Assembly (NCBI RefSeq): GCF_032813545.1 | Contig: NZ_CP136520.1 | Span: 676,001-740,000, forward strand | Direction of reading: 5' to 3' | Source: Nodosilinea sp. E11 | Lineage (GTDB): Bacteria > Cyanobacteriota > Cyanobacteriia > Phormidesmidales > Phormidesmidaceae | DNA length: 64,000 nt | Shown here: positions 22,134-54,885 of the stretch, piece after piece | How positions within the stretch are numbered: the stretch's first letter is position 1 | Layout of the letters: each line of letters opens with the position of its first letter | The notes under the pieces: generated by a model | Told to the model about the DNA's origin: nothing | The model's database searches: none | The model's input: the letters and a program-made list of their open reading frames with translations, nothing else | Position numbers and translations under genes: made by a program

Positions 22134-24131
22134 ATGAAATTCTTCGGTAAATGTCTTGAAGAAGAATACCCCTGCGACTTGACGCCCAACATTCGAGCGC
22201 AGGCCATCTCAGCCTACCCCCGTCCTCAGCTTCAGCGTTCTCAATGGACCTCGCTGAATGGCTCCTGGAAGTTCACCTACGATGACGAAGGGCGCTATGC
22301 ACGACCCAACGATGTCAAAGCGTGGAATCAGACTATCGAAGTTCCCTTCGCTCCCGAATCTATCCGCAGTGGTATTCATGACCAGGGGTTTCATCCAAAT
22401 TGCTGGTACGAGCGAGAGTTTGAAGTATTAGCCGAGGGGGATGGTCAAAAACCAGCCAAAGGCCAACGCGTCCTGCTCCACTTTGGCGCGGTCGATTACC
22501 GGGCGCGGGTGTGGGTCAACGGCGAGTTTATGATTGACCACGAGGGCGGCCACACCCCCTTCTCGATGGATATCACCTCTGTCCTGCGCCCCGATGGCCG
22601 GCAGACCGTAACCCTCTGGGCCGCAGACGACCCCCACGACTTGGCCAAACCCCGAGGTAAGCAAGACTGGCAGCAGAACCCTCACAGCATCTGGTATCCC
22701 CGCACCAGCGGCATTTGGCAAACGGTGTGGCTAGAAGAAGTTCCGGCTACCTATATCGATCGCATCAAGTGGACTCCTCATTTCGAGCGCTGGGAAATTG
22801 GCTTTGAGGGCTTTGTTTCTGGCGACTCACAAAAGGAAATGCACTTAAAGGTGCGGTTGACCGTGGGCAAACAACTCCTGGTCAACGATATGTATGAGGT
22901 GCTGAATGGCGAAATTCACCGCCGCATCGCCCTCTCCGACCCCGGTATTGATGACTATCGCAATGAGTTGCTGTGGAGCCCTGAGAAGCCAACGCTGATC
23001 GATGCCCAGATTCAACTGTGGTGCGAGGGGCAGATGGTAGATGAGGTGCGATCGTATACCGCCATGCGGACGGTGAGCATTCAGCGCGATCGCTTTATGC
23101 TCAACGGCCATCCCTACTATCTGCGGCTGGTGCTCGACCAGGGCTACTGGGAAGACACCCTGATGACCGCCCCTTCCGATGACGCCCTGCGCCGCGATGT
23201 GGAACTGGTTAAGCAAATGGGCTTCAACGGCGTGCGTAAGCACCAGAAAATTGAAGACCCCCGCTTTCTGTACTGGGCCGATGTGCTGGGGCTAATGGTC
23301 TGGGAAGAAATGCCCAGTGCCTACCGCTTTACCCCCAAGGCGGTGGAACGGCTGACGAAGGAATGGACAGAGGTGATTGAGCGCGATGCCAGTCATCCCT
23401 GCATTGTGGTCTGGGTGCCGTTCAACGAGTCCTGGGGTGTGCCCGACCTGACGGCAACCCCGGCCCATCGTCACTGTGTTCAGGCACTGTACCACCTGAC
23501 CAAAACCCTCGACCCCACCCGCCCGGTAATCGGCAACGATGGCTGGGAAAGTACGGCCACCGATATTCTGGCGATCCACGACTACGACACCCAACCCCAC
23601 AGCGTGGCAAAACGCTACGGGCCTGAGGTAAAGCTGACGGATCTGTTCGATCGGCAGCGTCCCGGCGGTCGGGTGCTGACCCTAGACGGCTACCCCCACC
23701 AAGGACAGCCGATTATGCTGACCGAGTTTGGCGGCATTGCCTGTACCAAACCCGAAGAACAGAACAGCACCTGGGGCTATGCCCGCTCCGACAATGCCCT
23801 GGAGTTTCAGCGGCAGTATGCGGCGCTGCTGCAAACGGTGAATCGGGTGGAAATGTTTAGTGGTTTCTGCTACACCCAACTGACCGATACCTTTCAGGAG
23901 GCCAACGGGCTGTTATACATCGATCGCACGCCAAAATTCCCTATCGAGGCGATCGCATCTGCCACTTTGGGTAGGGGGATGGGGGAGGATGCTCCGTCTA
24001 TGCTGCAAGAGTCTGCAAAAGTAGCACAGGCCCAAATGGAACATGCATTCCCAGACGCTTTTGAAGCCAGATGGGCGCAACCTCACCCTGTACAGCCGCT
24101 CACCCATTGCGGCGGGAATAATCGCGCCTAG
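22134..24131 (+). CDS. GH2 family beta-galactosidase/glucuronidase-like hydrolase
   Basis: A 665-residue GH2 enzyme. An N-terminal sugar-binding jelly roll ([16 protein letters not shown]) is followed by an immunoglobulin-like domain and the TIM barrel. The acid/base Glu is in [10 protein letters not shown] (about residue 430) and the nucleophile Glu in IMLTEFGG (about 530). No signal peptide, so probably cytoplasmic. The linkage is inferred as beta-galactoside because galT and galK follow at once. Its 3' end overlaps the galT start by 89 bases, so its last 30 residues share DNA with the start of GalT. Confidence 0.85.
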
Positions 24132-25143
24132 TCCGAGTAGTGAACCCGTTCAGGCCAATCCCCACCTCCGCTGGCACCCGCTGCGGGGGGAATGGGTGGC
24201 CTATGCCAGCCATCGCCAGGGGCGCACCTTCATGCCGCCCCCCGAGTACAACCCGCTGGCTCCTACCAAAGACCCGCAGTTCCCTACAGAGCTACCCCAG
24301 GGCAACTACGATATTGCGGTATTTGACAATCGCTTTCCGTCGCTGATTTCGTCAGCGACGGATGCGCCGCATGAAATTGTGGACACGGTGCCCGCCAACG
24401 GTGCCTGTGAGGTGGTGGTGTTTACCCAAGACCCCCAGGCGGCCCTGAGTTCGCTACCGCTAGACCATATTGAGCTGCTGTTTCAGGTGTGGGGCGATCG
24501 CACCCAGGCCATCAGCCAGCATTCCCACATTCAGTACGTCCTCCCCTTTGAGAATAAAGGGGTCGAAGTGGGGGTGACGCTGCACCATCCCCACGGGCAA
24601 ATTTACGCCTATCCCTTTGTGCCGCCAGTGCCAGCTCGCATGGGAGCGTGTCAGCAGGAGCATTATCAGCAGCACCAGCGAGGATTGTTAGAGGATTTGA
24701 TTCAGGCGGAGATTGAGGATGATCAGCGGATTTTGTATCGGGATGAGTGGGCGATCGCCTTTGTTCCCGTATGCGCCCGCTATCCCTATGAAGTCTGGAT
24801 TGCCCCAATTCAACCCGTGGCCACCTTTCAGGCTCTAACGCCCAATCAACGGACGGGCTTAGCCCGAGCGCTAAAGACCGTGACCCTAAAATACGACGGC
24901 CTGTGGCAGCGCCCATTTCCCTACCTGATGGCCTGGTTTCAAGCACCCGTGAATGGAGAAGCCCACCCAGAATGGCACCTTCACGCTCAATTTTATCCCC
25001 CCTATCGCACCTCTGACCGGCTCAAGTATTTAGCCGGAACCGAACTGGCGGCGGGCATGTTTGCCAATGATGCGCTGCCGGAAGAAAAAGCCAAGGAATT
25101 GCAGGCCGTTAAGGTTGAGCTGGAAGAAGTCACGCGTGTTTAA
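24043..25143 (+). CDS. galT: Galactose-1-phosphate uridylyltransferase
   Basis: A 366-residue enzyme of the Leloir pathway. It exchanges galactose-1-phosphate with UDP-glucose. The HHPHGQ active-site motif lies near residue 180 (histidine nucleophile), and the N-terminal [17 protein letters not shown] and C-terminal HLHAQFYPP regions match the HIT-superfamily fold. The ATG at 24043, inside the GH2 reading frame, is kept because the following residues ([18 protein letters not shown]) resemble the N-terminal lead of other cyanobacterial GalT proteins. Translational coupling to GH2 is therefore likely. Confidence 0.88.
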
Positions 25144-25381: not shown

Positions 25382-26485
25382 ATGAATCGGTTAGAAGAAA
25401 TTTCTGAAAAATTGGCCGTGCTGCGGCATACGCTCCAGCAAACGGACGCCGCCGGAATTCGTTTGCGGGGCACCGATTGGTTTGCCTGGGCGACGGCTGG
25501 AGGTTCCAACACGGTGCTGTTGGCCGCTGAAACGGGGGTGGCGGAGGTACTGGTAACGCCCACCAATGCCTGGGTGCTGACCGATGAAATCGAGGCCCAG
25601 CGGCTGAAAGATGAGGAACTACCCGAGGGGTCTCCCTACCAGCTTCAGGTCAACCCCTGGGCAGAAGACTCTGCGCGGGAAGCCTTTGTGCGGGAGGCGA
25701 CGGGGGGCGGCCAGGTGCTGAGTGACAAGCCAAAACAATCCTCTGAAGCTGCCCTACCCGCATCCCTCATTCACCACCGCAGGGTGATGTTGCCCAGCGA
25801 ACTCGATCGCTATCGCCAGGTGGGACGGCTGGCCAGCGAAGCGATGACCGAGGTGTTAACCCGAGCCCAACCGACCTGGACAGAAGACCAATTGGCGGGA
25901 GCGGGGGCAGAAGCGATGTGGTCTAGGGGGCTACATCCGGTGCTGACGCTAGCTGCGGGCGATCGCCGCCTTCCCCTCTACCGCCACCCCCTACCCAGCG
26001 GCGAAACCCTGGGTCGCCAGGCGATGCTGGTGTTTTGTGCGCGAGGGCATGGGCTGATTGTCAGCCTGACCCGCTTTGTGTTCTTCGAGAAATTATCGGA
26101 GGCGGACCGGCAACGCCATCGCACGATCGCTGAGATTGAAGCCGTTGCCCTGGCTCACTCCCAGGTGGATGCGCCGCTGAATGAGATCCATCAGACATTG
26201 GCCACGGCCTACGAACAGCACGGGTTCCCTAACGCGATTCGGGAACACCACCAGGGGGGCACCGCTGGCTATGGGGCGCGGGAAGTGATCGCGACCGCAG
26301 AGACGGGCGATCGCCTCGCTGCTGCCATGATCCTGGCCTGGAACCCCAGCATTCCAGGGGCCAAGGTTGAGGACACCTTTGTTTTGCACGCCGATAACCG
26401 CTTGGAAAACCTGAGTTTTGACCCCCAGTTTCCCCACCAGGAGATTGCCGGACGGCTGCGATCGATGCCCCTGGAGCGCGCCTGA
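25382..26485 (+). CDS. M24 (pita-bread) family-like protein, likely catalytically degenerate
   Basis: A 367-residue protein whose C-terminal half resembles the creatinase/aminopeptidase (M24) fold: LPSELDRYRQVGRLASEAM, TWTEDQLAGAGAEAMWSRG and HHQGGTAGYGAREV. In functional M24 enzymes a D-x-G...D-x-T-R segment supplies metal ligands; here the equivalent reads VFCARGHGLIVSLTRFVFF and lacks both aspartates. A His (HHQGG) and a Glu (GAKVEDTFVL) remain. It is probably not a metallopeptidase; its role in sugar metabolism is unknown. It sits between galT and galK, and the stop codon shares a base with the galK start. Confidence 0.7.
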   Translation: MNRLEEISEKLAVLRHTLQQTDAAGIRLRGTDWFAWATAGGSNTVLLAAETGVAEVLVTPTNAWVLTDEIEAQRLKDEELPEGSPYQLQVNPWAEDSAREAFVREATGGGQVLSDKPKQSSEAALPASLIHHRRVMLPSELDRYRQVGRLASEAMTEVLTRAQPTWTEDQLAGAGAEAMWSRGLHPVLTLAAGDRRLPLYRHPLPSGETLGRQAMLVFCARGHGLIVSLTRFVFFEKLSEADRQRHRTIAEIEAVALAHSQVDAPLNEIHQTLATAYEQHGFPNAIREHHQGGTAGYGAREVIATAETGDRLAAAMILAWNPSIPGAKVEDTFVLHADNRLENLSFDPQFPHQEIAGRLRSMPLERA

Positions 26486-27543
26486 TGAACTATACCCAGA
26501 TTTTCAACGCCGCCCCCGCCGTAGAAGCCCTCGCCCCCGGACGGGTGAACCTGCTGGGCGAACACACCGACTACAACGATGGGTTTGTGCTGCCCACCGC
26601 CATTCCCCAGCACACCACCGTTGCCATTGGTTTCAGCCCCGACGATCGCCACCATTTTTACTCTGCTGAATTAGAGGAACGGGTGGACTTCGACCCCGCA
26701 GGTGCTTCTCCCGAGGGCTTTGCCCGCTACATTGACGGCTGCATTCGCGTTTTGGCAGCCGCCGGGCACAAAATTCCGCCTTTAAATATCTTCGTCACGT
26801 CGTCCGTTCCCATCGGTTCTGGGCTATCCAGTAGTGCAGCGCTGGAGGTGGCCACCCTAAGGGGATTGCGATCGCTCCTCCACCTCCCCTTAGACGATGT
26901 GGAGATCGCCCAGCTCGGTCAGCAGGCCGAAATCCAGTATGCCGGGGTGAGCTGCGGCATTCTCGACCAGATGGCCTCCAGCCTGGCCGATACCGATCAC
27001 ATGCTGTTTCTCGATACCCGCACCCTCGATCGCCAAATTTTGCCCTTCCCCCCAGGCGCAGAGATTGTCGTGATCGACAGTGGCGTGGCGCGATCGCTGG
27101 CCACCAGCGGCTACAACCAGCGCCGGGCCGAATGCGAAGCCGCCGCCGACCAACTCGGCGTCAAAGCCCTGCGCGACATCACCGACCCCCAGCAGGCCGA
27201 GCCATTGCCTGAACCTCTCCGCCAGCGTGCCCGCCATGTGATCACCGAAAATAACCGGGTACTGAAAGCCCTAGAGGGCATTACCGCCGCCGCCTTCGGG
27301 AAGCTAATGAACGATTCCCACGCCAGCCTGCGCGACGACTACGAAGTCTCTGTCCCCGCCCTCGACACCCTGGTAGACATCCTTCAAACTACCCCCGATG
27401 TCTTGGGTGCCCGCCTCACTGGAGCTGGATTTGGCGGAGCCTGTGTAGCCCTGGTGACCGAGGGCAGAGGGGAGGCGATCGCCCAATCCACCCTTGACCA
27501 GTACAACCGCACCGGCAACCACGGACACATCCTCGTTAGCTAA
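26485..27543 (+). CDS. galK: Galactokinase
   Basis: A 352-residue GHMP-superfamily kinase that phosphorylates galactose at C1. Motif 1 PGRVNLLGEHTDYNDGF carries the galactose-binding signature, and motif 2 VPIGSGLSSSAALEVA is the ATP-binding loop; motif 3 GARLTGAGFGGACVAL is near the C-terminus. The start ATG overlaps the previous stop by one base (TGATG arrangement), suggesting translational coupling. It acts just before GalT. Confidence 0.92.
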   Translation: MNYTQIFNAAPAVEALAPGRVNLLGEHTDYNDGFVLPTAIPQHTTVAIGFSPDDRHHFYSAELEERVDFDPAGASPEGFARYIDGCIRVLAAAGHKIPPLNIFVTSSVPIGSGLSSSAALEVATLRGLRSLLHLPLDDVEIAQLGQQAEIQYAGVSCGILDQMASSLADTDHMLFLDTRTLDRQILPFPPGAEIVVIDSGVARSLATSGYNQRRAECEAAADQLGVKALRDITDPQQAEPLPEPLRQRARHVITENNRVLKALEGITAAAFGKLMNDSHASLRDDYEVSVPALDTLVDILQTTPDVLGARLTGAGFGGACVALVTEGRGEAIAQSTLDQYNRTGNHGHILVS

Positions 27544-27882: not shown

Positions 27883-28066
27883 ACAACTCCTCCAGCATAG
27901 CCATCCACCAAAAGAAATTGAGATTTTTGAAGAATCCACAGAATCATAGGCATTCCGACTCTGCTAATGGGGAGAATAGAAATATAGCTAAGGGTACATT
28001 TTGTTCTGCTCACTGAATCTCAGCAGCAGGATGTCATCCCTAACTCTCCCTTTAGCGCCTTGCAAA

Positions 28067-28873
28067 ATGATTCAAAGCATTCCCACAACAACATTTAATT
28101 CAACCGATTTAGATCAACTTGCAGCAGACTTAAATCGCGATGGAATTTGCATCATTCGTGGATTATTTGATCGTACCCTAATTGACGACTGGAAAGCTGC
28201 CTTTGATGCCCTATTTCATCAGCGGCAGCAACAACCCGGTGGTGTTGCCCCCCGAGGCACCGCTCGCGGCTACGTTACTCTGCCCTGGGTTACCCCATTT
28301 GCCAATCCGGGCGTCTTCGCCAACCCGACTATTCTAGGTATTCTCGATCGCGTCTTTTATCAGGAATATAAGCTGGTACAGTTGGCCGCTGATGTTCCCA
28401 TGCAGGGGTCAGAGTATCAGGATATTCACCGCGACTTTCGCCCCCTCTTTTCTGACCAGATCGTGACGCCGCTCTATGCCCTGGCGGTCAACTTTCCCCT
28501 GGTCGAAGTCACCGCCGACAACGGCCCCTTTGAGATGGCGCGGGGCACCCATGTCATGTCTCGCGAAGCAGGCCTAGTCAAAATTCAAGCGGGCGAAATT
28601 GCGATGGAGCAGTTTTATATGCAGCCGGGAGATGTGATGGTGCGATCGCCCCTGGCCCTCCACCGGGGCACCCCCAACCGCACTCCTGAACCCCGCCCGA
28701 TGGTGGTGATGGGGTACGTCATGCACTGGCTTCATACCCACAAGGTAGATTTAACCCTAGAGCAAGCCTACTACAATGGGCTATCGCCAGAACACCAGCA
28801 GTTGCTGCGGTGTAACACCGTCGAGCAGCTATCCGACAACGCCACAGAAACCTATGTAAAGTTCGAATATTAG
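28067..28873 (+). CDS. Phytanoyl-CoA dioxygenase (PhyH) family protein
   Basis: A 268-residue Fe(II)/2-oxoglutarate oxygenase. The HxD metal pair is in DIHRDFRPLF (about residue 120) and the distal His in LALHRGTPNRT (about 197), completing the facial triad; PGDVMVRS precedes it. The family hydroxylates lipid and other small molecules. ATG at 28067 is chosen as the start of the folded protein; a 22-residue longer frame from 28001 is possible. It stands after the galT/galK cluster with a palindrome between; whether it belongs to the sugar pathway is unclear. Confidence 0.78.
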   Translation: MIQSIPTTTFNSTDLDQLAADLNRDGICIIRGLFDRTLIDDWKAAFDALFHQRQQQPGGVAPRGTARGYVTLPWVTPFANPGVFANPTILGILDRVFYQEYKLVQLAADVPMQGSEYQDIHRDFRPLFSDQIVTPLYALAVNFPLVEVTADNGPFEMARGTHVMSREAGLVKIQAGEIAMEQFYMQPGDVMVRSPLALHRGTPNRTPEPRPMVVMGYVMHWLHTHKVDLTLEQAYYNGLSPEHQQLLRCNTVEQLSDNATETYVKFEY

Positions 28874-28963: not shown

Positions 28964-28982
28964 TAATCAATTGGGTCAAACC

Positions 28983-29969
28983 ATGGCTACGCAAACCTAT
29001 ATCAATCCGGTTTACCCCAAGTATTTTGCCGACCCGTTTGTGTGGCAACACCAGGGGATTTACTATGCGATCGGTACAGGGCCAGCGGAAGCCGCTGGAG
29101 AGGTGGATGAGCTTCATCAACAGCGGGTTTTTCCCCTGCTGCAATCCGAGGACTTGGTGCAGTGGCAACCTGCCGGGAATGCTTTGCTGCGGCCCGATCC
29201 AACCTTGGGAGACAACTTTTGGGCACCAGAAGTAGCGCACCATGAGGGCACTTTCTACCTCTACTATTCGGTTGGCCATGGCGATAAAAACCACCAGCTA
29301 CGGGTGGCCACCAGCGCCGACCCGCTGGGGCCTTATCAGGATGTCGGCGAGTCGTTAATCGATCCAAAAACCTGTGCCTTTGCCATTGATCCCAGCCCTT
29401 TTCAGGACGACGATGGGCAGTGGTATCTCTTCTACGCCCAGGATTTTTTGGATACGGTGCAGGGGGTGCGGGCGGGCACGGCCCTGGTGGTCGATCGCCT
29501 CTCAACCATGACCACCCTCGCCGCAGAACCCAGAGTCGTGCTGCGGGCACGGCACGACTGGCAGCGGTTTTTGGCCGATCGCCCCATGTACGGCGGCACC
29601 TACGATTGGCATACCTTAGAAGGCCCCTGCGTGCGAAAGCAGGGCGATCGCTACTACTGCTTCTATAGCGGTGGACGGTGGGAAACGGACAGCTACGGCG
29701 TTGACTACGGTGTGGCCGATCACGTTCTGGGGCCATACTCAGACAGTGGGAATGAGCAAGGGCCACGGGTGCTGCGATCGCGGCCCGGTTCTGTGCTCGG
29801 CCCCGGCCACAACTCGATCGCCCTACATCCTGACAACCAATCCGAGTACTTGGTTTACCATGCCTGGGATCCAGCAATGACCGCACGACGGCTCTGTATC
29901 GATCGACTGCTGTGGACAGAGGCAGGCCCTCGATGTAAAGGGCCAACCTGGACCCCCCAAGCGTTTTAG
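28983..29969 (+). CDS. GH43 family glycoside hydrolase
   Basis: A 328-residue five-bladed beta-propeller enzyme with the three conserved acids of GH43: base Asp in YFADPFVW, pKa-modulating Asp in AIDPSPF, and acid Glu in TLEGPCV. Typical substrates are arabinofuranosides, xylosides or galactans; because UDP-galactopyranose mutase lies downstream, a galactofuranoside target is plausible, but this is inference. No signal peptide is seen. The ATG at 28983 is chosen over an upstream ATG four codons earlier, and the difference is minor. Confidence 0.82.
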   Translation: MATQTYINPVYPKYFADPFVWQHQGIYYAIGTGPAEAAGEVDELHQQRVFPLLQSEDLVQWQPAGNALLRPDPTLGDNFWAPEVAHHEGTFYLYYSVGHGDKNHQLRVATSADPLGPYQDVGESLIDPKTCAFAIDPSPFQDDDGQWYLFYAQDFLDTVQGVRAGTALVVDRLSTMTTLAAEPRVVLRARHDWQRFLADRPMYGGTYDWHTLEGPCVRKQGDRYYCFYSGGRWETDSYGVDYGVADHVLGPYSDSGNEQGPRVLRSRPGSVLGPGHNSIALHPDNQSEYLVYHAWDPAMTARRLCIDRLLWTEAGPRCKGPTWTPQAF

Positions 29970-30332: not shown

Positions 30333-30663
30333 GCAGACGAGTCGGAGGCCCAGTTCACAAAAAACGGTCATTCGAGTCTTATAAATACATGACCTTTGGT
30401 TGTTTAAACTTCTACCAAAAGAGATGTTTCCAATCAAAACAAACCTCCTACTCTAAAGGTGTCAGCCCCACTAGCGATCTTTAGCGATGCCTGAAGTGGC
30501 GGATGAGATTGAATACTTTTCAAAACTGAAAATCGATTGTTGTTTTAGCAAAAAGCTATGCAATCCATAGAGTTTCGCCTTAAATCTTACCGGCACTAGC
30601 TCTAAGCAAAAGCCACAATTTTAAGAGCATTAGTTTGCCAAACTTTTGGACTGAGAGGTGAAA
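30333..30663. other. Intergenic region before the glycosyltransferase
   Basis: 331 bp of AT-richer sequence with no gene or strong hairpin; it may contain a promoter for the glycosyltransferase-glf-fusion subset. Nothing else is seen. Confidence 0.4.
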
Positions 30664-32022
30664 ATGTCAACCCACTACGTTTCAGAAAGCTCTTTAAATA
30701 GAAGATTTCCTGAAAAAAATTCGCTAGAAGATCAGTCTCATTCAGAGAAAATTACCACATCTCTTGGTTTACGGTGGCCTGAAGGTACAAAGCTAGACCC
30801 CCCAGTGCCTGAAATACCAGATTTGATTTGCTTCTCTCATCTCCGGTGGGATTTTGTTTACCAGCGACCCCAACATTTGCTTAACCGCTGTGCCCAGGCT
30901 CGCCGGGTTTTTATTGTGGAGGAGGCGATCGCTGTTCCTGACGAAACCTCCTGGCTCGACCTGAGTCAGCGTGAGAGTGGTGTATGGATCGTTGTTCCCC
31001 ATATGTCCGAAAGCCTCAGCGACGAGGCTTTTATCCTCTCCTTGCAACAGTTGTTGAGCACCCTGTTGGCCGAGGCTCAAATGCAACAGCCGATCCACTG
31101 GTATTACACACCCATGGCGGTGCCGTTTACCCAACATTTGCCGTCTTCCGCTGTGGTGTACGACTGTATGGACGAGCTTTCTGCTTTCAGGGGAGCCCAT
31201 CCCCAACTGCAAGCCTGGGAAGCCCAATTATTTAAGCTGGCGGATCTCGTCTTTACGGGGGGCCATAGCCTCTACGAGGCCAAGCGGCACCAACATACCA
31301 GCGTCCATGCCTTCCCCAGCAGCATTGAAGCGGTCCACTTTGCCCAAGCTCGCCAGCCCCTACCAGAGCCCCCCGATCAAGCCCATATTCCTCATCCCCG
31401 GTTGGGATTTTATGGGGTGATCGACGAACGGATGGATCTGGAATTGCTGGATGGCATTGCCCAGGCGCGGCCCGACTGGCATTTGGTCATGGTTGGCCCG
31501 ATCGCCAAAATTGACGAGGCTTCCCTCCCCCAGCGTCCCAACATTCACTATCTCGGGGGCAAGTCCTATCCAGAATTGCCCAGCTATCTAGCCGGTTGGG
31601 ATGTGGCTCTGCTGCCCTTTGCCCGCAATGAATCGACCCGGTTCATCAGCCCGACCAAAACGCCGGAGTACCTGGCCGCTGGCAAACCCGTGGTGTCTAC
31701 CTCGATTCGGGATGTGGTGCGGCCCTACGGCGATGAGAAATTGGTGCACATTGCCGATACGGTACCGGAATTTGTGGAGGCGATCGCCACCGCTCTTGAT
31801 CCCCAGCAAACCCCTGCCGATTGGCTCGACCGGGTGGATGAGTTTCTCGCCCAAACCTCCTGGGATCTGACCTGGGAAGCCATGAATGAGCGAATTGAGG
31901 CAGCGATCGCCGCCAATGCTCGCCAGCCCCTTCGATCTAAGACCGCCCCATCCAAGACCACTCAATCCAAGACCCAATATCCGACGGCGATCGCCGCCGA
32001 TCTTGACCAGCTAGCGATCTAA
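30664..32022 (+). CDS. Glycosyltransferase family 1/4 (GT-B) protein
   Basis: A 452-residue glycosyltransferase. The N-terminal part (LICFSHLRWDFVYQRPQHL) is of the TuaH-like type, with the C-terminal donor-binding region FISPTKTPEYLAAGKPVVST, where the EX7E-like Glu residue binds the nucleotide sugar. ATG at 30664 follows GAGAGGTG; a GTG two codons earlier is possible. The C-terminal 30 residues are low-complexity (TAPSKTTQSKTQYPTA). It is likely cytoplasmic or membrane-peripheral and transfers a sugar onto a polysaccharide. It ends 24 bases before glf, and a truncated homologue lies at 35804. Confidence 0.8.
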   Translation: MSTHYVSESSLNRRFPEKNSLEDQSHSEKITTSLGLRWPEGTKLDPPVPEIPDLICFSHLRWDFVYQRPQHLLNRCAQARRVFIVEEAIAVPDETSWLDLSQRESGVWIVVPHMSESLSDEAFILSLQQLLSTLLAEAQMQQPIHWYYTPMAVPFTQHLPSSAVVYDCMDELSAFRGAHPQLQAWEAQLFKLADLVFTGGHSLYEAKRHQHTSVHAFPSSIEAVHFAQARQPLPEPPDQAHIPHPRLGFYGVIDERMDLELLDGIAQARPDWHLVMVGPIAKIDEASLPQRPNIHYLGGKSYPELPSYLAGWDVALLPFARNESTRFISPTKTPEYLAAGKPVVSTSIRDVVRPYGDEKLVHIADTVPEFVEAIATALDPQQTPADWLDRVDEFLAQTSWDLTWEAMNERIEAAIAANARQPLRSKTAPSKTTQSKTQYPTAIAADLDQLAI

Positions 32023-32046: not shown

Positions 32047-33303
32047 ATGTTCGACTATTTAATTGTTGGTGCTGGATTTGCTGGCAGTGTTTTAGCAGAG
32101 CGCTTAGCCAGTCAGCAGGATAAGAAAATTTTGATTGTAGACACCCGCAACCACATTGGTGGTAATGCCTACGATCACTACAACGAAGATGGAATTTTAG
32201 TTCACAAATACGGCCCCCACATCTTTCATACCAATTCCCGAGATGTGTTCGAATATTTGTCTACCTTTACCCAGTGGCGACGTTACGAGCACCGTGTTCT
32301 CGCCAGTGTGGATGGTCAATTGGTGCCAATCCCCATTAATCTCGACACCATTAACAAGCTGTACGGATTGAAGCTAACCGCCTTTGAGGTGCAGGAATTT
32401 CTAGATTCTCTAGCCGAACCTAAGGAGTACATTCGCACCTCTGAAGATGTGGTGGTGAGCAAAGTCGGGCGAGAACTGTACGAAAAATTCTTCCGCAACT
32501 ACACCCGCAAACAGTGGGGCATTGATCCCTCGGAGCTAGATAAATCGGTGACCGCCCGTGTCCCCACCCGTACCAACCGGGACGATCGCTACTTCACCGA
32601 TACCTACCAGGCCATGCCGCTCCACGGCTACACCCGTATGTTCGAGCAGATGTTGACCCACCCCAACATCAAAATCATGCTCAACACCGATTATCGGGAA
32701 ATTCAAGACATCATTCCCTACAGAGAAATGATTTACACCGGCCCGGTGGATGGCTTCTTTGATTATTGCTACGGCAAGCTGCCCTATCGATCCCTCGAAT
32801 TCAAACATGAAACATTGAACGAGGAGGTGCATCAGCCCCAGGCCGTAGTCAACTACCCCAACGAACACCTCTATACCCGGGTGACCGAGTTCAAATATTT
32901 GACCGGGCAAGAACACCTCAAAACCAGTATTGTCTACGAATATCCCCAGGCGGAGGGCGATCCCTACTATCCTGTGCCGCGCCCCGAAAATGCCGAGCTC
33001 TACAAGCAGTACAAAGCCCTAGCCGAGGCCGAACCGGGGGTTCACTTTGTGGGACGGCTGGCCACCTACAAGTATTACAACATGGATCAGGTGGTGGCTC
33101 AGGCCTTAGCACTCCACGCCCAACTGTCGGACCGCTCTACCTGGCACCCCAGAGCAGAAAGCCTGCCTGCGAAGAAATCAGCCGCCCCCACGACCAATGG
33201 CAACGGTAACGGCACCTTTAAGTCTCCTTCCAGCAATGGCTCCAGCCGTTCTGCTACTCCTGTAGCGGCAGGTAAAGCCGAACAAAATGGCAAATCCCGT
33301 TGA
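32047..33303 (+). CDS. glf: UDP-galactopyranose mutase
   Basis: A 418-residue FAD enzyme converting UDP-galactopyranose to UDP-galactofuranose. The N-terminus is FDYLIVGAGFAGSVLAERL, with HNIGGNAYDHYN-like (RNHIGGNAYDHYNEDG) FAD-binding region, KYGPHIFHTN, and RKQWGIDPSELD. The conserved core is about 380 residues; the last 50 are low-complexity (NGNGNG, SSNGSSRS) and absent from the family core. GGGAG precedes the start. The fusion gene begins near its stop, so the two are probably co-translated. Confidence 0.9.
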   Translation: MFDYLIVGAGFAGSVLAERLASQQDKKILIVDTRNHIGGNAYDHYNEDGILVHKYGPHIFHTNSRDVFEYLSTFTQWRRYEHRVLASVDGQLVPIPINLDTINKLYGLKLTAFEVQEFLDSLAEPKEYIRTSEDVVVSKVGRELYEKFFRNYTRKQWGIDPSELDKSVTARVPTRTNRDDRYFTDTYQAMPLHGYTRMFEQMLTHPNIKIMLNTDYREIQDIIPYREMIYTGPVDGFFDYCYGKLPYRSLEFKHETLNEEVHQPQAVVNYPNEHLYTRVTEFKYLTGQEHLKTSIVYEYPQAEGDPYYPVPRPENAELYKQYKALAEAEPGVHFVGRLATYKYYNMDQVVAQALALHAQLSDRSTWHPRAESLPAKKSAAPTTNGNGNGTFKSPSSNGSSRSATPVAAGKAEQNGKSR

Positions 33304-33335: not shown

Positions 33336-35603
33336 ATGAGTGCAAACCAGGTTTCACCCCAGCTAGAACTGTGGGGTGGCGTTGAATGTACCGTGAACCG
33401 GGTGGGCGATCGCTACTTTGACCAGCTCCAGCGCAACGGTCACGATACCCGCATCGAAGACCTCGATTGCTTTGCCGACCTGGGCATTCAGGCGATCCGC
33501 TATCCCATTCTGTGGGAACGCACCGCCCCCAACGGCCCCGAGCAGGCCGATTGGCGCTGGGCCGACGAGCGGTTGAGCTACCTGAAGGATATCGGTGTGC
33601 GTCCAATTGTGGGTCTGATCCACCACGGCAGCGGCCCGCCCCATACCAGCCTGTTAGACCCAGAGTTTGCCACCGGGCTAGCTCAGTTTGCCGAGGCCGT
33701 GGCCCGCCGCTACCCTTGGCTGGAATACTACACCCCGGTCAATGAGCCCCTGACCACCGCCCGCTTCAGCGGGTTGTACGGCCACTGGTACCCCCATGCC
33801 CAAGACGACCAGAGCTTTATTCGAGCCCTGCTGAATCAGTGCCGGGGGGTGGCGCTATCCATGCAGGCCATTCGCCGCATCAATCCGGCGGCCAAGCTGG
33901 TGCAGACCGAGGATCTGGGCAAGGTATTTGGCACGCCGCTGTTAGACTACCAGGTGGCCTTTGAAAATGCGCGGCGATGGTTATCCTTTGACCTGCTCTG
34001 CGGTCGGGTAGACCAGCACCACGAGCTGTGGGGCTATTTGCGCTACGTCGGTGTGGAGGAATCTGACCTCGCCTGGTTTCTCGATCATCCCTGCCCGCCC
34101 GATATTGTTGGCATTAACCGCTATTTGACCAGCGATCGCTTCCTAGATGAACGGCTCGATCGCTACCCACCCCACACCCACGGCAGCAACGGCCAGCACC
34201 AATACGCCGATGTAGAAGCGGTGCGGGTTTGCGCCGATGGCATTTGCCCCGCCGAGACCCTGCTGAAGGAAGTCTGGGAACGCTACCACCGCCCGATCGC
34301 CATTACCGAAGTGCACCTGGGCTGCACCCGCGAGGAGCAACTGCGCTGGTTCAAGGAAATTTGGGAGGCCGTCCAGCACCTGCGCCAGGAGGGGGTAGAC
34401 CTGCGGGCCGTCACCGCCTGGTCGCTGCTCGGAGCCTACGACTGGAATAGCCTGGTGACCCGCAACGAGTGCTTTTATGAACCGGGCGTGTTTGACCTGC
34501 GGCCCCCATGCAGCAGCATTTTGCGATCGCCCTCACCCCGCCCCACCGCGATCGCCACCATGCTCCGCCACCTATCTCAAGGCAAACCTTACAATCACCC
34601 CCTGCTAGAAGTCCCCGGCTGGTGGAACCGCAGCGATCGCCTGCTTTATCCGCCCGTTGCTTGCGGTCATACTGCTTCTCACACTCCAGAAGAGTCTGCC
34701 GATTTCCCATCCACCCGCCCACTCGCCCACCCATCTACCCACCCACCCATCCACCCGTCCCCCCTCCTGATTACCGGAGCGACCGGCACCCTTGGTCAAG
34801 CCTTTGCTCGCATCTGTGACGTGCGGGGCATTCCTTACCGCCTACTGAGCCGCCAGGAGATGGATATTACCCATCCCACCATGGTTGAGCAGGTGCTAGA
34901 TGACATGCGGCCATGGGCGGTAATTAACGCAGCGGGATATGTACGCGTCGATGATGCGGAGCAAGAGGCTGACCTATGCCTGAGCATTAATGCGGATGGG
35001 GCCGCTATTTTGGCGGAGAATTGTGCCCAACGCAATATTGGGCTGATCACCTTTTCCTCGGATCTGGTGTTTGATGGCGATCGCCATCAGCCTTACTTAG
35101 AGAGTGATTCAGTCGCTCCCTTAAATGTCTACGGCCATAGCAAAGCCCAAGCAGAACGACGGGTGTTACATCACTATCCCGATTCTTTAGTCATTCGTAC
35201 CAGTGCGTTTTTTGGCCCTTGGGATGACTACAACTTCTTGACAGTTGCCCTACGCACCCTGAGGGCAGGACAGCCGTTTTTGGCGGCGGCAGATGCGATC
35301 GTCTCTCCCACCTATGTTCCCGATCTAGTGCATGCCAGCCTCGACCTGCTGATCGATGGCGAGTACGGCCTCTGGCACCTGGCCAATCCAGGGGCGATCG
35401 CCTGGGCTGACCTGGCTCGTCAGACGGCGCAACTGGCCGGGTTAGATGCCTCCGCTATTCAATCTTGCTCCACCCAGAGCTTCGGCTATGCGGCATCTCG
35501 CCCCGCCTACAGCGTGCTCAGCAGCGAGCGGGGAGTGTTGCTGCCCAACCTCGACCGGGCGATCGCTCAATATTTGCATGATTGCGATCGGGTTTGTGTG
35601 TAG
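33336..35603 (+). CDS. GH1-like glycosidase fused to RmlD-type sugar-nucleotide reductase
   Basis: A two-domain protein of 755 residues. The N-terminal GH1-like domain (about residues 1-440) has WGGVECTVNRVGDRYFDQL, the NEP motif in YYTPVNEPLTTARFSG (acid/base) and ITEVHLGC in the nucleophile region. A Pro/His/Ser/Thr-rich linker (DFPSTRPLAHPSTHPPIHPS) joins it to a Rossmann domain (about 475-755) with LLITGATGTLGQAF and the YGHSK catalytic pair. The second part resembles dTDP-4-dehydrorhamnose reductase. Starts at 33300 (TTG) or 33336 (ATG); ATG chosen. It may build or modify a sugar nucleotide while the first domain trims a glycan. Confidence 0.78.
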   Translation: MSANQVSPQLELWGGVECTVNRVGDRYFDQLQRNGHDTRIEDLDCFADLGIQAIRYPILWERTAPNGPEQADWRWADERLSYLKDIGVRPIVGLIHHGSGPPHTSLLDPEFATGLAQFAEAVARRYPWLEYYTPVNEPLTTARFSGLYGHWYPHAQDDQSFIRALLNQCRGVALSMQAIRRINPAAKLVQTEDLGKVFGTPLLDYQVAFENARRWLSFDLLCGRVDQHHELWGYLRYVGVEESDLAWFLDHPCPPDIVGINRYLTSDRFLDERLDRYPPHTHGSNGQHQYADVEAVRVCADGICPAETLLKEVWERYHRPIAITEVHLGCTREEQLRWFKEIWEAVQHLRQEGVDLRAVTAWSLLGAYDWNSLVTRNECFYEPGVFDLRPPCSSILRSPSPRPTAIATMLRHLSQGKPYNHPLLEVPGWWNRSDRLLYPPVACGHTASHTPEESADFPSTRPLAHPSTHPPIHPSPLLITGATGTLGQAFARICDVRGIPYRLLSRQEMDITHPTMVEQVLDDMRPWAVINAAGYVRVDDAEQEADLCLSINADGAAILAENCAQRNIGLITFSSDLVFDGDRHQPYLESDSVAPLNVYGHSKAQAERRVLHHYPDSLVIRTSAFFGPWDDYNFLTVALRTLRAGQPFLAAADAIVSPTYVPDLVHASLDLLIDGEYGLWHLANPGAIAWADLARQTAQLAGLDASAIQSCSTQSFGYAASRPAYSVLSSERGVLLPNLDRAIAQYLHDCDRVCV
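34706..34770 (+). repeat. CCACCCATCTACCC-type minisatellite inside coding linker
   Basis: In-frame tandem-like units of CCCATCCACCC and CCCATCTACCC lie in the linker of the GH1-RmlD fusion. A 14-base string (34728-34741) recurs at 54846-54859, in the intergenic copper region. Confidence 0.75.
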
Positions 35604-35803
35604 AAATAGTCTTTTTCCTATCACTCAAAACCTTAAGATTTTGGGTGATAAATTATTTCGTCAAAACAAATTCTAGGAACAGTAGAACACCCGACTTTTT
35701 CTTGCCATTGGGGATATGGTCTATACCTCTTAAAGCAGTCGCCATTAAAGGGCAAAGGACGCTATTCTCAAAAATACCACTTTAAAAAATACAAAAGAAA
35801 TAA

Positions 35804-36334
35804 ATGACCATAAAAATGAGCCCCTCAACCCTCCATAGCCCATCAATGGCAAGCATTGAAAATCGCCTATCTAACGCTTCTGATCTGGTTTGTTTTTCCC
35901 ACTTGCGGTGGGAGCTTCTAGAACAGCGATCGCAGCAAATTCTAGGTGATTACGCTCAAGAGCAGCGGGTCTTTTTTATTGAAGAACCTGTTGTTGAATT
36001 TATTGATTCGTGGTGGATTGATGTCCACCAGAACGAGTGTGGTGTATGGGTAGTTGTGCCCCATGTGCTCGACTGGGTCAGCGACGAATTACGTAAAGCC
36101 ATGGGCCAGAGCTTGATAGACGAGCTATTTGAACAATTTGCGATCGTCACGCCAACCCTCTGGTACTCCACCCCTTCCGCTCCGCTACCCTTAACCCACC
36201 ATCTAAAATTTTCTAACCGTCGTGCACAGCCGTTCTCAGACAGTAAATTTTCCTCAGCTAAACTCGATCTAACTCAAGACCCTTTACAGCTGTTCAGGGC
36301 TGGGACAGTTCGAGAACAGATCCCCAACGGCTAA
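35804..36334 (+). pseudogene. Truncated glycosyltransferase fragment
   Basis: A 176-residue open frame. Its first 140 residues are homologous to the N-terminal part of the glycosyltransferase at 30664: LVCFSHLRWELLEQRSQQIL against LICFSHLRWDFVYQRPQHLL, and CGVWVVVPHVLDWVSDE against SGVWIVVPHMSESLSDE. No donor-binding half follows; the last 40 residues are unrelated (SNRRAQPFSDSKFSSAKL). It looks like a remnant of a duplicated gene at the right end of the sugar locus. It could be a truncated protein that is still made. Confidence 0.72.
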
Positions 36335-36413: not shown

Positions 36414-36486
<73 letters not shown>

Positions 36487-52368: not shown

Positions 52369-54618
52369 ATGAAACATCAAATCCTTAAACTGCAGGGCAT
52401 GAGCTGTGCGGCCTGCGCCAGCAACATCGAAACAGCGATTCGGGAGGTGCCCGGTGTAGCTACGTGCAGCGTCAACTTTGGCGCGGAGCAGGCCGCCATC
52501 ACCTACGACCCCCGCCAGACCAACCTCACCCACATTCAGGCGGCGGTGGATGACGCGGGCTATGGGGCTCAGCCGATCAGCGATGACCCCCTAGCCGCCG
52601 AGGACGATGCCGAACGCCGCGATCGCGCCGCCAAACACCGCGAACTCACCCGCAAGGTGATCGTCAGCCTGGCCATTGGCGGCGTGCTGATGGTGGGTGG
52701 TCTGCCGATGATGACCGGCATCCCCATGCCGTTTATTCCAATGTGGCTGCACAACCCCTGGTTTCAGCTGGTGGTGACGCTGCCGGTAATGCTGTGGGCC
52801 GGCAGCCACTTTTTTGTCAACGCCTGGAAGTCGTTTAAGCGCCGCACCGCCACCATGGACACACTGGTGGCCGTGGGCACCGGCACCGCCTACCTATACT
52901 CCCTGTTCCCAACGCTGTATCCCCAGTGGTTCCTCGCCCAGGGGCTCAGCCCCGATGTGTACTTTGAGATTTCTGCCATCATCATCGCCCTAATTTTGCT
53001 GGGCAACCTGCTCGAAAACCGGGCCAAGGGCCAGACCTCCGAGGCCATTCGCCAGCTCATGGGGTTACAGGCCAAAACGGCACGGGTGATTCGCGATGGC
53101 CAGGCGTTTGACTTGCCCATCGCCGAGGTGGTGGTGGGCGACGTGATTTTGGTGCGCCCCGGCGAAAAAATTCCGGTGGATGGCGAGATCATCGACGGCG
53201 CATCTACTCTTGATGAGGCCATGGTGACCGGCGAAAGCGTCCCTGTGCAGAAGACGGTGGGCGATGAGGTGATCGGCGCAACCCTGAACAAGACCGGCAG
53301 CTTCAAATTTCGGACCACCCGCGTCGGCAAAGACACGTTTTTAGCTCAGATCGTCAAGCTGGTGCAGCAGGCCCAGGGGTCAAAGGCCCCGATTCAGCAG
53401 CTGGCCGACCGGGTGACCGGCTGGTTTGTACCGGCGGTAATTGCCGTGGCCATTCTCACCTTTGTGGTCTGGTTCAATGTCATGGGCAACCTCAGCATGG
53501 CGCTGATCACCACCGTTGGGGTGCTGATTTTGGCCTGCCCCTGTGCCCTAGGCCTGGCAACACCAACCTCGATTATGGTCGGCACAGGCAAGGGAGCCGA
53601 GCACGGCATTTTGGTGAAAGGGGCCGACAGCCTAGAGCTAGCCCACAAGATTCAAACCCTTGTGCTAGACAAGACCGGCACCATCACCCAGGGCCAGCCC
53701 ACCGTGACCGACTACCTGACGGTCAACGGCACTGCCACCGAACTGCACCTGCTGAAACTGGCAGCAACCCTAGAGCGCAACTCCGAGCATCCCCTGGCCG
53801 AGGCGGTGGTCAACTACGCCCAGGCCCAAGGGGTGAGCCTAGAGGAGGCCCAACAGTTTGAAGCCGTGGCGGGCAGCGGCGTGCAGGGGGTCGTCGCCGG
53901 GCAATCTGTGCAGATCGGCACCCACCGCTGGATGCAGGAACTGGGCATCGCCACCGATCGCCTGCAAACCCAGTGGGACCAGCTCGAATCGCTAGGTCGT
54001 ACCGTGGTGTGGTTGGCGGTAGACAGCCAGGTAGAAGCTCTCTTGGCGATCGCCGACGCGGTCAAACCCTCCTCCATTCAGGCGATTGCCATCCTGCAAC
54101 GCATGGGCCTAGAGGTGGTGATGCTGACCGGCGACAACCGCCGCACCGCCGAAGCGATAGCCCGCGAAGTCGGCATCACCCGCATCTTTGCCGAAGTGCG
54201 CCCCGATCAAAAAGCCGCCCAGGTTGAAAGCCTCCAGCGGGAAGGCAAGGTCGTGGCCATGGTGGGCGACGGCATCAACGATGCCCCAGCCCTGGCCCAG
54301 GCCGATGTGGGCATGGCGATTGGTACAGGCACCGATGTGGCGATCGCCGCCAGCGACATCACCCTAATCTCCGGCGACCTGCACGGCATTGTCACCGCCA
54401 TCCAGCTCTCCCGCGCCACCATGGCCAACATTCGCCAAAACCTATTCTTTGCCTTCATCTACAACGTCGCGGGCATCCCGATCGCCGCCGGCATTCTCTA
54501 CCCCGTCTTTGGCTGGCTGCTCAACCCGATCATCGCCGGAGCAGCCATGGCCTTTAGCTCGGTGTCAGTAGTGACCAACGCGCTGCGGCTGCGGAACTTT
54601 CGCCCCAGGTTGGGGTAG
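52369..54618 (+). CDS. copA: Copper-transporting P1B-type ATPase
   Basis: A 749-residue heavy-metal ATPase. An N-terminal HMA domain ([15 protein letters not shown]) is followed by the CPx transmembrane motif [13 protein letters not shown], the phosphorylation Asp in [11 protein letters not shown] and [18 protein letters not shown]. Eight TM segments are expected. The CPC motif supports Cu+ specificity; in cyanobacteria this could be CtaA or PacS (import to, or export from, compartments). GGAGG precedes the start. It is followed at once by a G-rich/C-rich minisatellite. Confidence 0.9.
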
Positions 54619-54885
54619 GTGGGAGGGTAGATGGGTGGGAGGGTAGGCGGGTAGGCGGGTAGGTGGGCAGGTGGGCAGGTGGGCAGGTGGATTCTCGCCC
54701 TCTCATCTACTCATCCCTTCCCTCCTTCACCCCTTCCCTCCTTCACCCCTTCCCTCCTTCACCCCCTCTCTCCTTCACCCCCTCTCTCCTTCACCCCTTC
54801 ACTCCTTCACCCCTTCACCCCTTCCCTCCCCACCCATCCACTCATCCACCCATCTACCCTCTCACCCTCCCTCCTCAAGGAGCAC
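54604..54885. repeat. G-rich / C-rich minisatellite between copA and cupredoxin genes
   Basis: From the copA stop, GGGAGGGTAGATGGGTGGGA-type units (54604-54692) are followed by CTTCACCCCTTCCCTC-type units (54698-54885). A 14-bp inverted match, GGGTAGATGGGTGG (54625-54638) with CCACCCATCTACCC (54846-54859), spans the block. The same 14-mer occurs at 34728-34741. Confidence 0.85.

Follow-up and report, generated by a model that had tools for sequence, protein, structure and literature searches.

A GH1:RmlD fusion encoded next to UDP-galactopyranose mutase in Nodosilinea sp. E11, with relatives in nine phyla

GH1 beta-glucosidases such as Thermotoga maritima BglA (PDB 2j7h/1od0) combine a (beta/alpha)8 fold with two catalytic glutamates, a conserved histidine and a C-terminal tryptophan, while RmlD (PDB 1vl0, 3sc6) is marked by its fold and by GxxGxxG, YxxxK and RP motifs. 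All of these features recur in a single protein of Nodosilinea sp. E11, encoded in the window analyzed here (64,000 nucleotides, positions 676,001 to 740,000 of contig NZ_CP136520.1). In contrast to the beta-glucosidases, its GH1 half is fused to a reductase and is only about 18–20% identical to them. The RmlC/D fusion of Prymnesium parvum likewise places an RmlD domain within a multidomain sugar-nucleotide enzyme, although in the available part of that report RmlD is joined to RmlC of its own pathway and not to a glycosidase (PMC6556577). Mycobacterial arabinogalactan synthesis starts with Glf, WbbL and GlfT1: a glycosyltransferase attaches galactofuranose (Galf) made by Glf to a lipid-linked unit that contains rhamnose; the available part of that account describes no GH1 enzyme or fusion, and the system has more genes and an ABC exporter (PMC10951656). 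The accessible portion of PMC5702140 treats fusions in general and not GH1:RmlD. No description of the fusion appears among the open-licence literature matches listed (titles and abstract starts), and we found no open-licence paper that pairs UDP-galactopyranose mutase with "family 1 glycosylhydrolase" or a GH1 domain with RmlD.

Architecture of the fusion protein

The fusion gene (Table 1) is a single stop-free ORF in which a GH1 domain is followed by a disordered linker and an RmlD domain. The initial annotation had read one chain with a glycosidase-type and an RmlD-type domain, and the ORF, the Pfam matches, the structure model and the relatives all confirm it. Its placing of the gene's start at the glf stop is very nearly correct: the reading frame stays open upstream to a TTG at 33300, which overlaps that stop (33301–33303), and the ATG (33336) follows the stop by 32 nt. 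The AlphaFold model, which had been proposed as a check, shows two domains predicted with confidence (mean pLDDT 87, pTM 0.88) and, separating them, a disordered stretch at residues 444–471; within the GH1 half, the loop at 370–378 is of low confidence. The linker DNA is partly a C-rich tandem array (34706–34764). Because no hydrophobic N-terminus or secretion signal is seen in the ORF on inspection by eye, the protein is probably cytosolic.

Table 1. Features of the fusion gene and its surroundings, numbered from the first nucleotide of the window
Feature	Position	Strand	Evidence or remark
GH2 family glycosidase, neighbouring galactose cluster	22134..24131	+	linked to fusion in other loci
GalT, galactose-1-phosphate uridylyltransferase	24043..25143	+	TIGR00209 172.3 bits vs cut-off 102.1; start probably further in
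M24 peptidase-like protein, between GalT and GalK	25382..26485	+	equivalent position in both Geomonas loci
GalK, galactokinase	26485..27543	+	TIGR00131 293.6 bits vs cut-off 226.65
GH43	28971..29969	+	within the genus, the genomes with this gene are the same as those with the trio
Glycosyltransferase, Pfam Glyco_trans_1_4	30658..32022	+	PF13692 44.1 bits vs cut-off 27
glf, UDP-galactopyranose mutase	32047..33303	+	TIGR00031 399.9 bits vs cut-off 303.75
GH1:RmlD fusion gene, 755 aa	33336..35603	+	ORF translation, Pfam, full-length relatives, structure model
GH1 (beta/alpha)8 domain, about residues 10–430	33363..34625	+	Pfam 41–372; structural match, about residues 6–420, to GH1 beta-glucosidases, Z about 33
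NEP motif, N136 E137 P138	33741..33749	+	E137 aligns with GH1 acid/base; N136 and E137 in 76/76 rows
E325	34308..34310	+	aligns with GH1 nucleophile (ITE), then VH in place of NG; E in 77/77 rows
Inter-domain linker	34665..34763	+	pLDDT <50 at 444–471; compared with relatives
RmlD-type reductase domain, about residues 477–750	34764..35585	+	Pfam 214.5 bits; Z 38.3 to 1vl0
YGHSK catalytic motif of RmlD domain (Y599–K603)	35130..35144	+	Y in 70/77, K in 66/76 rows
Terminator-like stem, 12 pairs (3 G-C), directly 3' of fusion gene	35619..35650	+	
Short ORF, probable remnant; resembles (39%) the N-terminal third of the glycosyltransferase in the trio	35804..36334	+	

The GH1 half matches Pfam Glyco_hydro_1 (PF00232) at 42.2 bits against a cut-off of 22.6, and its fold aligns with 2j7h_A over 379 residues (Z 33.8, rmsd 2.9). 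Both catalytic motifs noted at the outset, NEP and YxxxK (as YGHSK), are present. Residues H96, H97, N136 and E137 are invariant in 76/76 rows, and E325 and W362 in 77/77, in counts that take in near-identical strains. A pure sensor role, which had been suggested for this domain, is not supported because the two catalytic glutamates and the neighbouring histidine and asparagine never vary. The canonical glycon pocket of the classical GH1 gluco- and galactosidases, in contrast, is altered: the W that follows the conserved H is replaced (HW to HH), the nucleophile is followed by VH instead of NG (ITENG to ITEVH), and residue 369, which corresponds to the E of NFEW, is D, G or E. The GH1 family beta-glucosidase equivalog TIGR03356 is widely missed (54.8 vs 478.5 bits). 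On its sequence, this half is a divergent GH1 enzyme with an intact catalytic site and a remodelled glycon pocket.

The RmlD half belongs to the RmlD superfamily by profile, Rossmann fold and YxxxK motif, with a match to RmlD_sub_bind (PF04321) over residues 477–732 (cut-off 27) and an rmsd of 1.7 to 1vl0 over 275 residues. A PHROGs search of the fusion returned a sole match, to a nucleotide-sugar epimerase family, on this half. The dTDP-4-dehydrorhamnose reductase equivalog TIGR01214 is narrowly missed, at 213.5 against a cut-off of 224.05; three other fused rows with an intact active site score 208.9–211.6, and the genome's own solo RmlD, the control, reaches 371.3 (L002). The score below the cut-off suggests that the substrate of the fused domain may not be the rhamnose precursor. 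A separate rmlC-rmlD-rmlB set lies elsewhere in the same genome, and in a tree of 43/78 rows, thinned by hand, the fused domains form one side of a 100/98 branch, apart from the 11 solo cyanobacterial RmlDs that make up the comparison set.

Distribution and repeated loss of the reductase half

The initial annotation supposed that similar fusions might exist in databases, and they do. Near-full-length relatives occur at 41/45 related genome loci (48–88% identity), and 19 plasmid records cover ≥80% of the fusion (sequences examined for 18, all but H8); six further records carry GH1 only (H20–H25), of which four were examined (all but H22 and H23). The relatives span nine phyla, on chromosomes and on plasmids, and none was found in the viral contigs scanned. 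A frameshift or misassembly, or halves kept as separate genes in all relatives, had been named as findings that would undo the reading. The second is false, as the relatives carry the fusion, and the fusion is not an assembly error because so many loci and plasmid records carry relatives of it. Nothing was found in support of two genes joined by artefact, and with the fused RmlD domains on a branch of their own, that explanation can be dismissed with near certainty. The combination was called unusual, and it is uncommon (8/292 genomes sampled in the phylum); it had, however, already been deposited, mostly under the generic name "family 1 glycosylhydrolase".

The RmlD half is dead or missing in 10 loci, lost at least five separate times, with GH1 intact and the loci nested among fused relatives; the GH1 tree was built on 75 rows and had just two rows as outgroup. 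All 10 have the glycosyltransferase and Glf nearby. In S. montana (L045), no RmlD match is found in any frame at E 1e-3, which rules out a mere frameshift; the domain has truly been lost or has decayed in this locus. The reverse of this general pattern is seen at L066, where the GH1 half is split over two frames and RmlD is intact; the split possibly stems from a sequencing error. The repeated loss of RmlD with GH1 kept argues that GH1 is the indispensable half; judged from these sequences, RmlD acts as a dispensable aid.

Rates of substitution were also compared. In Caballeronia, dN/dS is 0.065–0.082 for GH1 and 0.18–0.24 for RmlD, ratios that are rough because several dS values exceed 1; RmlD persists there with Y and K missing from its motif, and the constraint on it is relaxed but not absent. 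In ten non-Caballeronia pairs, both halves are under purifying selection, with similar dN/dS in most.

The glycosyltransferase–Glf–fusion cassette

The fusion closes a tight trio with the glycosyltransferase and glf. The Glf is a true UDP-galactopyranose mutase by its TIGR00031 score, and the genome has no second strong match to it, just one further, partial match (E 3e-5). The glycosyltransferase is weakly TuaH-like (NF047676, 81 bits, far below the cut-off of 550). In the genus, the fusion, a strong glf, a full-length glycosyltransferase and GH43 co-occur in the same 4/17 genomes. Inspection of the window and of annotated plasmid regions, without profiles, identified no rmlABC, flippase or polymerase genes beside the trio. 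A promoter scan of the trio gave nothing exceeding chance, and the stem 3' of the fusion is weak evidence for a terminator because shuffled sequences hold no fewer such sites (mean 6.2, vs the 4 found).

Across loci, flanks of 6 kb were taken for genomes where the contig allowed and of about 5–8 kb for plasmids; the neighbour count leaves aside L041 and L046 (contig ends), L049 (a fragment) and loci with short flanks. Both the glycosyltransferase and Glf lie within 6 kb of the fusion in 34/34 cyanobacterial and 17/30 other loci, one of these 17 having a Glf neighbour only 35% identical (L039), and the glycosyltransferase is near in 21/30 of the non-cyanobacterial loci. The two are a single ORF in 32/64 loci, as confirmed by HMM in one, Gloeothece; Sphingobium likewise has a natural GT-Glf ORF. 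GalE is found within 6 kb in 24/34 cyanobacterial loci (in 19 of them on the same strand and at most 400 bases away) vs 1/30 others; one such neighbour checked by HMM scored 460 bits against a cut-off of 262.3. Because the glycosyltransferase and Glf adjoin the fusion across phyla, the coupling to sugar-nucleotide biosynthesis proposed at first is borne out, and more strongly than it was then seen. Adjacency indicates a shared pathway and does not indicate the direction of the GH1 reaction. Together with the single ORFs, it suggests that the glycosyltransferase moves Galf.

Neither partner lies in the flanks of 9/30 non-cyanobacterial loci, one of the nine being cut by a contig end. Among eight non-cyanobacterial genomes checked, seven have a Glf relative and one lacks Glf altogether. 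Local absence of glf means little, since five of the seven relatives lie beyond the flanks examined and cyanobacteria keep both Glf and RmlD; on these grounds the idea that lineages can do without RmlD only in the presence of Glf was dropped. EcfG general-stress control of the alphaproteobacterial cassettes was likewise not supported. The strict EcfG promoter motif gave 8 matches in the 11 alphaproteobacterial loci vs 5.3 expected from shuffles, and 13 vs 9.2 over all 22 loci searched; it stands just upstream of the glycosyltransferase only in L068 and perhaps L066.

A candidate Galf pathway and its alternatives

The reading we prefer, at a probability of roughly 0.45, is that this conserved but patchy cassette makes a Galf glycoconjugate in the cytosol, which GH1 would trim or remodel and for which the fused RmlD would supply a 6-deoxysugar. 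GalE or GalK/GalT would provide UDP-Galp, Glf would convert it to UDP-Galf, and the glycosyltransferase would transfer Galf onto an acceptor. A second sugar for this glycoconjugate would come from the RmlD domain by reduction of an NDP-4-keto-6-deoxysugar, for which dTDP-4-keto-L-rhamnose made by the housekeeping Rml enzymes is the most likely candidate. GH1, a putative retaining beta-glycosidase whose glycon pocket has been remodelled, may trim, proofread or transglycosylate the glycoconjugate. As far as the available part of the source describes it, mycobacterial galactan offers a precedent for Galf added to rhamnose (PMC10951656).

Were GH1 instead to hydrolyze imported beta-galactoside-type sugars, with galactose passing to GalK and GalT and RmlD incidental, its intact catalytic residues would be accounted for, as would the GH2, GalT and GalK genes, which lie upstream in the window and, in Gloeothece, both Geomonas loci and elsewhere, beside the fusion. 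Such salvage is rather unlikely, however: Leloir/GH2 genes are near only 15/64 loci (8/34 cyanobacterial and 7/30 other, three of these seven at only 29–39% identity) vs 55/64 for the glycosyltransferase and 51/64 for Glf, the classical beta-glucosidase model is missed, and the presence of Glf, glycosyltransferase and reductase is left without a reason. A biosynthetic GH1-fold transferase (transglycosidase), its sugar or donor prepared by the fused reductase, would suit the altered glycon pocket and a probably cytosolic protein among anabolic enzymes, whose GT-Glf partner likewise couples a bond-forming to a sugar-nucleotide enzyme. GH1 transglycosidases are known in plants; to our knowledge, however, no GH1 enzyme uses a sugar nucleotide. 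Moreover, GH1 stays intact in loci that have a dead RmlD or none, which argues that it does not need a reductase of its own, and sequence cannot separate transfer from hydrolysis; we hold this reading to be unlikely.

It seems improbable, too, that the GT:Glf and GH1:RmlD of the cassette mirror each other as bifunctional enzymes, in each of which a bond-maker is joined to the enzyme that prepares its sugar, with GH1 as a cytosolic biosynthetic transglycosidase that adds or moves a 6-deoxy or furanose sugar on the Galf glycoconjugate. If it were so, cyanobacteria, Deinococcus and soil proteobacteria would hold a Galf glycoconjugate of which we found no account. The RmlD half might also be a non-enzymatic binding or regulatory module that steers GH1, comparable to the beta subunit of human methionine adenosyltransferase; MAT2B is among its sequence and structural matches, and the Caballeronia domains retained without the motif Y and K would fit. 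Yet bacterial RmlD structures outscore MAT2B, most rows keep the motif intact, and outside Caballeronia most of the ten pairs show comparable dN/dS for the two halves, leaving this role highly doubtful.

Under the preferred reading of a Galf glycoconjugate pathway, a compact Galf-linked cassette spans nine phyla, one coherent family that the labels "family 1 glycosylhydrolase" and "sugar nucleotide-binding protein" mask. The fusion offers a glycosidase living among biosynthetic enzymes, and the lineages that lack RmlD but keep GH1, the glycosyltransferase and Glf are a natural experiment that makes the division of labour testable. The cassette also gives a starting point for finding Galf glycoconjugates in Deinococcus and in cyanobacteria.

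Domain structure of the GH1:RmlD gene

The last gene of the glycosyltransferase (GT)–glf–fusion trio is open throughout, and its translation is a single chain of 755 residues. The initial annotation had proposed from the sequence a GH1-like glycosidase joined to an RmlD-type reductase, with both catalytic motifs present, and these are indeed found (NEP at residues 136–138, YGHSK at 599–603). A Pfam profile search places a GH1 domain at residues 41–372 (PF00232, 42.2 bits versus a cut-off of 22.6) and an RmlD domain at 477–732 (PF04321, 214.5 bits versus a cut-off of 27). An AlphaFold model computed from an alignment of 28 sequences has a mean pLDDT of 87 and a pTM of 0.88, with a disordered linker at 444–471. 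By structure comparison, the GH1 half matches GH1 β-glucosidases (Z 33.8, rmsd 2.9, 379 residues) and the RmlD half matches RmlD (Z 38.3, rmsd 1.7, 275 residues). On inspection of the protein by eye, an export signal was not seen.

The linker DNA contains a C-rich repeat array (CCCACCCATCCACCC, ≤1 mismatch), and the repeat recurs elsewhere in the window. Across the genome, CCCACCCATCCACCC at ≤1 mismatch is counted 218 times, whereas the pattern reversed as a control gives 25. A motif of this kind lies in the fusion linker at six other loci of the genus and is absent from the seven compared fusion loci of other genera. It is a dispersed repeat residing in the coding linker.

Positions in the window of the trio and of neighbouring features
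Feature	Position	Strand	Remark
M24 peptidase-like protein	25382-26485		between GalT and GalK
PhyH-family dioxygenase	28001-28873		adjoins GH43
Glycosyltransferase	30658-32022	+	first of trio
glf	32047-33303	+	second of trio
GH1:RmlD fusion	33336-35603	+	last of trio
C-rich repeat array	34706-34764		linker of fusion
Short GT-like ORF	35804-36334		resembles N-terminal third of trio's GT (39%)
tRNA-Val	36414-36486		follows short ORF
C-rich repeat	54613-54859		

Distribution and age of the fusion

Both domains are known, and their join is widely deposited under generic names; among the matches listed, the open-access literature holds no description of it. We confirmed 45 fusion loci on genome contigs, 41 of which cover nearly the whole protein at 48–88% identity; of the other four, two run off their contigs (L041, L046; L-numbers denote individual loci) and two are partial (L045, L049). 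Among plasmids, 600 records match, 19 at ≥80% coverage; one of the 19 is divided between two ORFs (L066), and in some the RmlD half is broken. By record name, several being metagenome bins, the fusion occurs in Cyanobacteriota, Verrucomicrobiota, Thermodesulfobacteriota, Acidobacteriota, Planctomycetota, Bacteroidota, Bdellovibrionota, Pseudomonadota, and Deinococcota. Of 292 genomes from the same phylum as the window, eight carry a nearly full-length fusion and one more a contig-end piece; the remaining matches, among those listed, span the RmlD half only. Azospirillum thermophilum has two copies ∼3 kb apart on opposite strands (L068:12391-14817).

A tree built from 43 RmlD domains has a branch with 100/98 support that separates all 32 fused domains from 11 solo cyanobacterial RmlDs, a topology that fits one fusion event. 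GH1:RmlD is a real and old fusion.

Unequal conservation of the two halves

Conservation was counted over 79 aligned rows, near-identical strains included, with the rows covering a site as its denominator. In the GH1 half, H96, H97, N136, E137, R143, and Y263 are kept in 76/76 rows, E325, W362, and W370 in 77/77, and H327 in 75/77. The motif residues of the RmlD half vary more (Y599 kept in 70/77 rows, K603 in 66/76). The RmlD half is dead or missing at ten loci: four Caballeronia plasmids, in which the motif Y has become F or L and the K has become M, Deinococcus taeanensis, Deinococcus KNUC1210, Sphingomonas montana, Ensifer, and two Mesorhizobium. All ten retain GT and Glf nearby. At two further loci (L034, L090), the lysine is replaced by Q or R with the tyrosine retained. 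On the GH1 tree, the ten are nested among fused relatives at five positions (Caballeronia; D. taeanensis; KNUC1210; the rhizobia, next to fused Microvirga; and S. montana); RmlD has therefore been lost or broken at least five times, and GH1 has not. The reverse case is the Sphingomonas record L066, in which RmlD is intact and GH1 is spread over two reading frames; this may be a sequencing fault. Selection agrees with RmlD being the half that is lost: dN/dS in four Caballeronia pairs is 0.065–0.082 for GH1 and 0.18–0.24 for RmlD, some with dS >1. For ten further pairs, GH1 and RmlD mostly have similar values (e.g., 0.136 and 0.133 in Geomonas), the widest gaps being 0.277 versus 0.366 and 0.156 versus 0.215 in two Deinococcus pairs.

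In an alignment with solved GH1 enzymes, E137 falls on the acid/base, E325 on the nucleophile, and H96 on the conserved histidine. Unlike those enzymes, the fusion has H97 in place of the tryptophan following that histidine, VH rather than NG after the nucleophile, and D369 at the NFEW glutamate (G or E in 12/77 rows). Because these positions, which we take from GH1 residue roles to hold the glycon, are altered, its natural sugar is unlikely to be a common glucoside or galactoside. The fusion also falls far short of the GH1 β-glucosidase equivalog (54.8 bits versus a cut-off of 478.5). On the RmlD equivalog (cut-off 224.05), the RmlD half scores 213.5 bits, three other fused rows with intact active sites 208.9–211.6, a Caballeronia row 140.3, and the separate RmlD of the Nodosilinea sp. 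E11 genome, beside rmlC and rmlB, 371.3. The RmlD half is an RmlD relative in a subfamily of its own.

A putative galactofuranose cassette

Within the trio, 24 nt separate GT from glf and 32 nt separate the glf stop from the fusion ATG; an in-frame TTG overlaps the same stop. This glf encodes a true UDP-galactopyranose mutase (TIGR00031, 399.9 bits versus a cut-off of 303.75), the only strong Glf match in the Nodosilinea sp. E11 genome. In the genus, the fusion is present in 4/17 genomes, some of the 17 assemblies being just 83–86% complete. Strong matches to glf (E no higher than about 1e-266), GH43, and a full-length GT are confined to the same four; the other 13 give at best a partial glf match with E 7.8e-6, and one has a 41% partial GT match.

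GT and Glf both lie ≤6 kb from the fusion at 34/34 cyanobacterial loci and at 17/30 others, one of these (L039) with a Glf at just 35% identity; four more have GT without Glf and nine neither, one of the nine cut by a contig end. At 32/64 loci (L010, L011, L050, L087, and 28 others), GT and Glf form one ORF, mostly of ∼800 residues. The one checked by HMMs, the 808-residue Gloeothece ORF, has a TuaH-like GT at 129–413 and Glf at 442–800. These single ORFs mirror the adjoining GH1:RmlD fusion. GalE is within 6 kb at 24/34 cyanobacterial loci (on the same strand and ≤400 bases away at 19 of them) and 1/30 others, and the reference copy clears its cut-off (460 versus 262.3 bits).

Upstream of the fusion, the window carries GH2, GalT, M24, and GalK genes, a set also found ahead of the fusion at both Geomonas loci; galK, galT, and GH2 lie near it in Gloeothece. 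A Leloir or GH2 relative is nearby at 8/34 cyanobacterial loci and 7/30 others, three of the seven at 29–39% identity. The placement of the M24 protein between GalT and GalK is repeated in two Geomonas genomes (54% identity), and a PhyH relative is found ≤6 kb from the fusion at 12/34 cyanobacterial loci and 1/30 others. Nodosilinea LEGE 06152 has a similar short GT-like ORF downstream of its fusion gene.

What the sequence shows is the common neighbourhood, the intact GH1 site, the mostly intact RmlD site and, by eye, no export signal; the following scheme is inferred. GalE or GalK/GalT would supply UDP-galactose, which Glf would convert to UDP-galactofuranose for transfer by GT onto an acceptor. 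For this product, the RmlD half may generate a reduced 6-deoxysugar nucleotide, and the GH1 half may trim, proofread, or move a sugar on the product itself, bond breaking and bond making both being compatible with its sequence. Rhamnose and galactofuranose are likewise linked where the mycobacterial galactan begins (PMC10951656).
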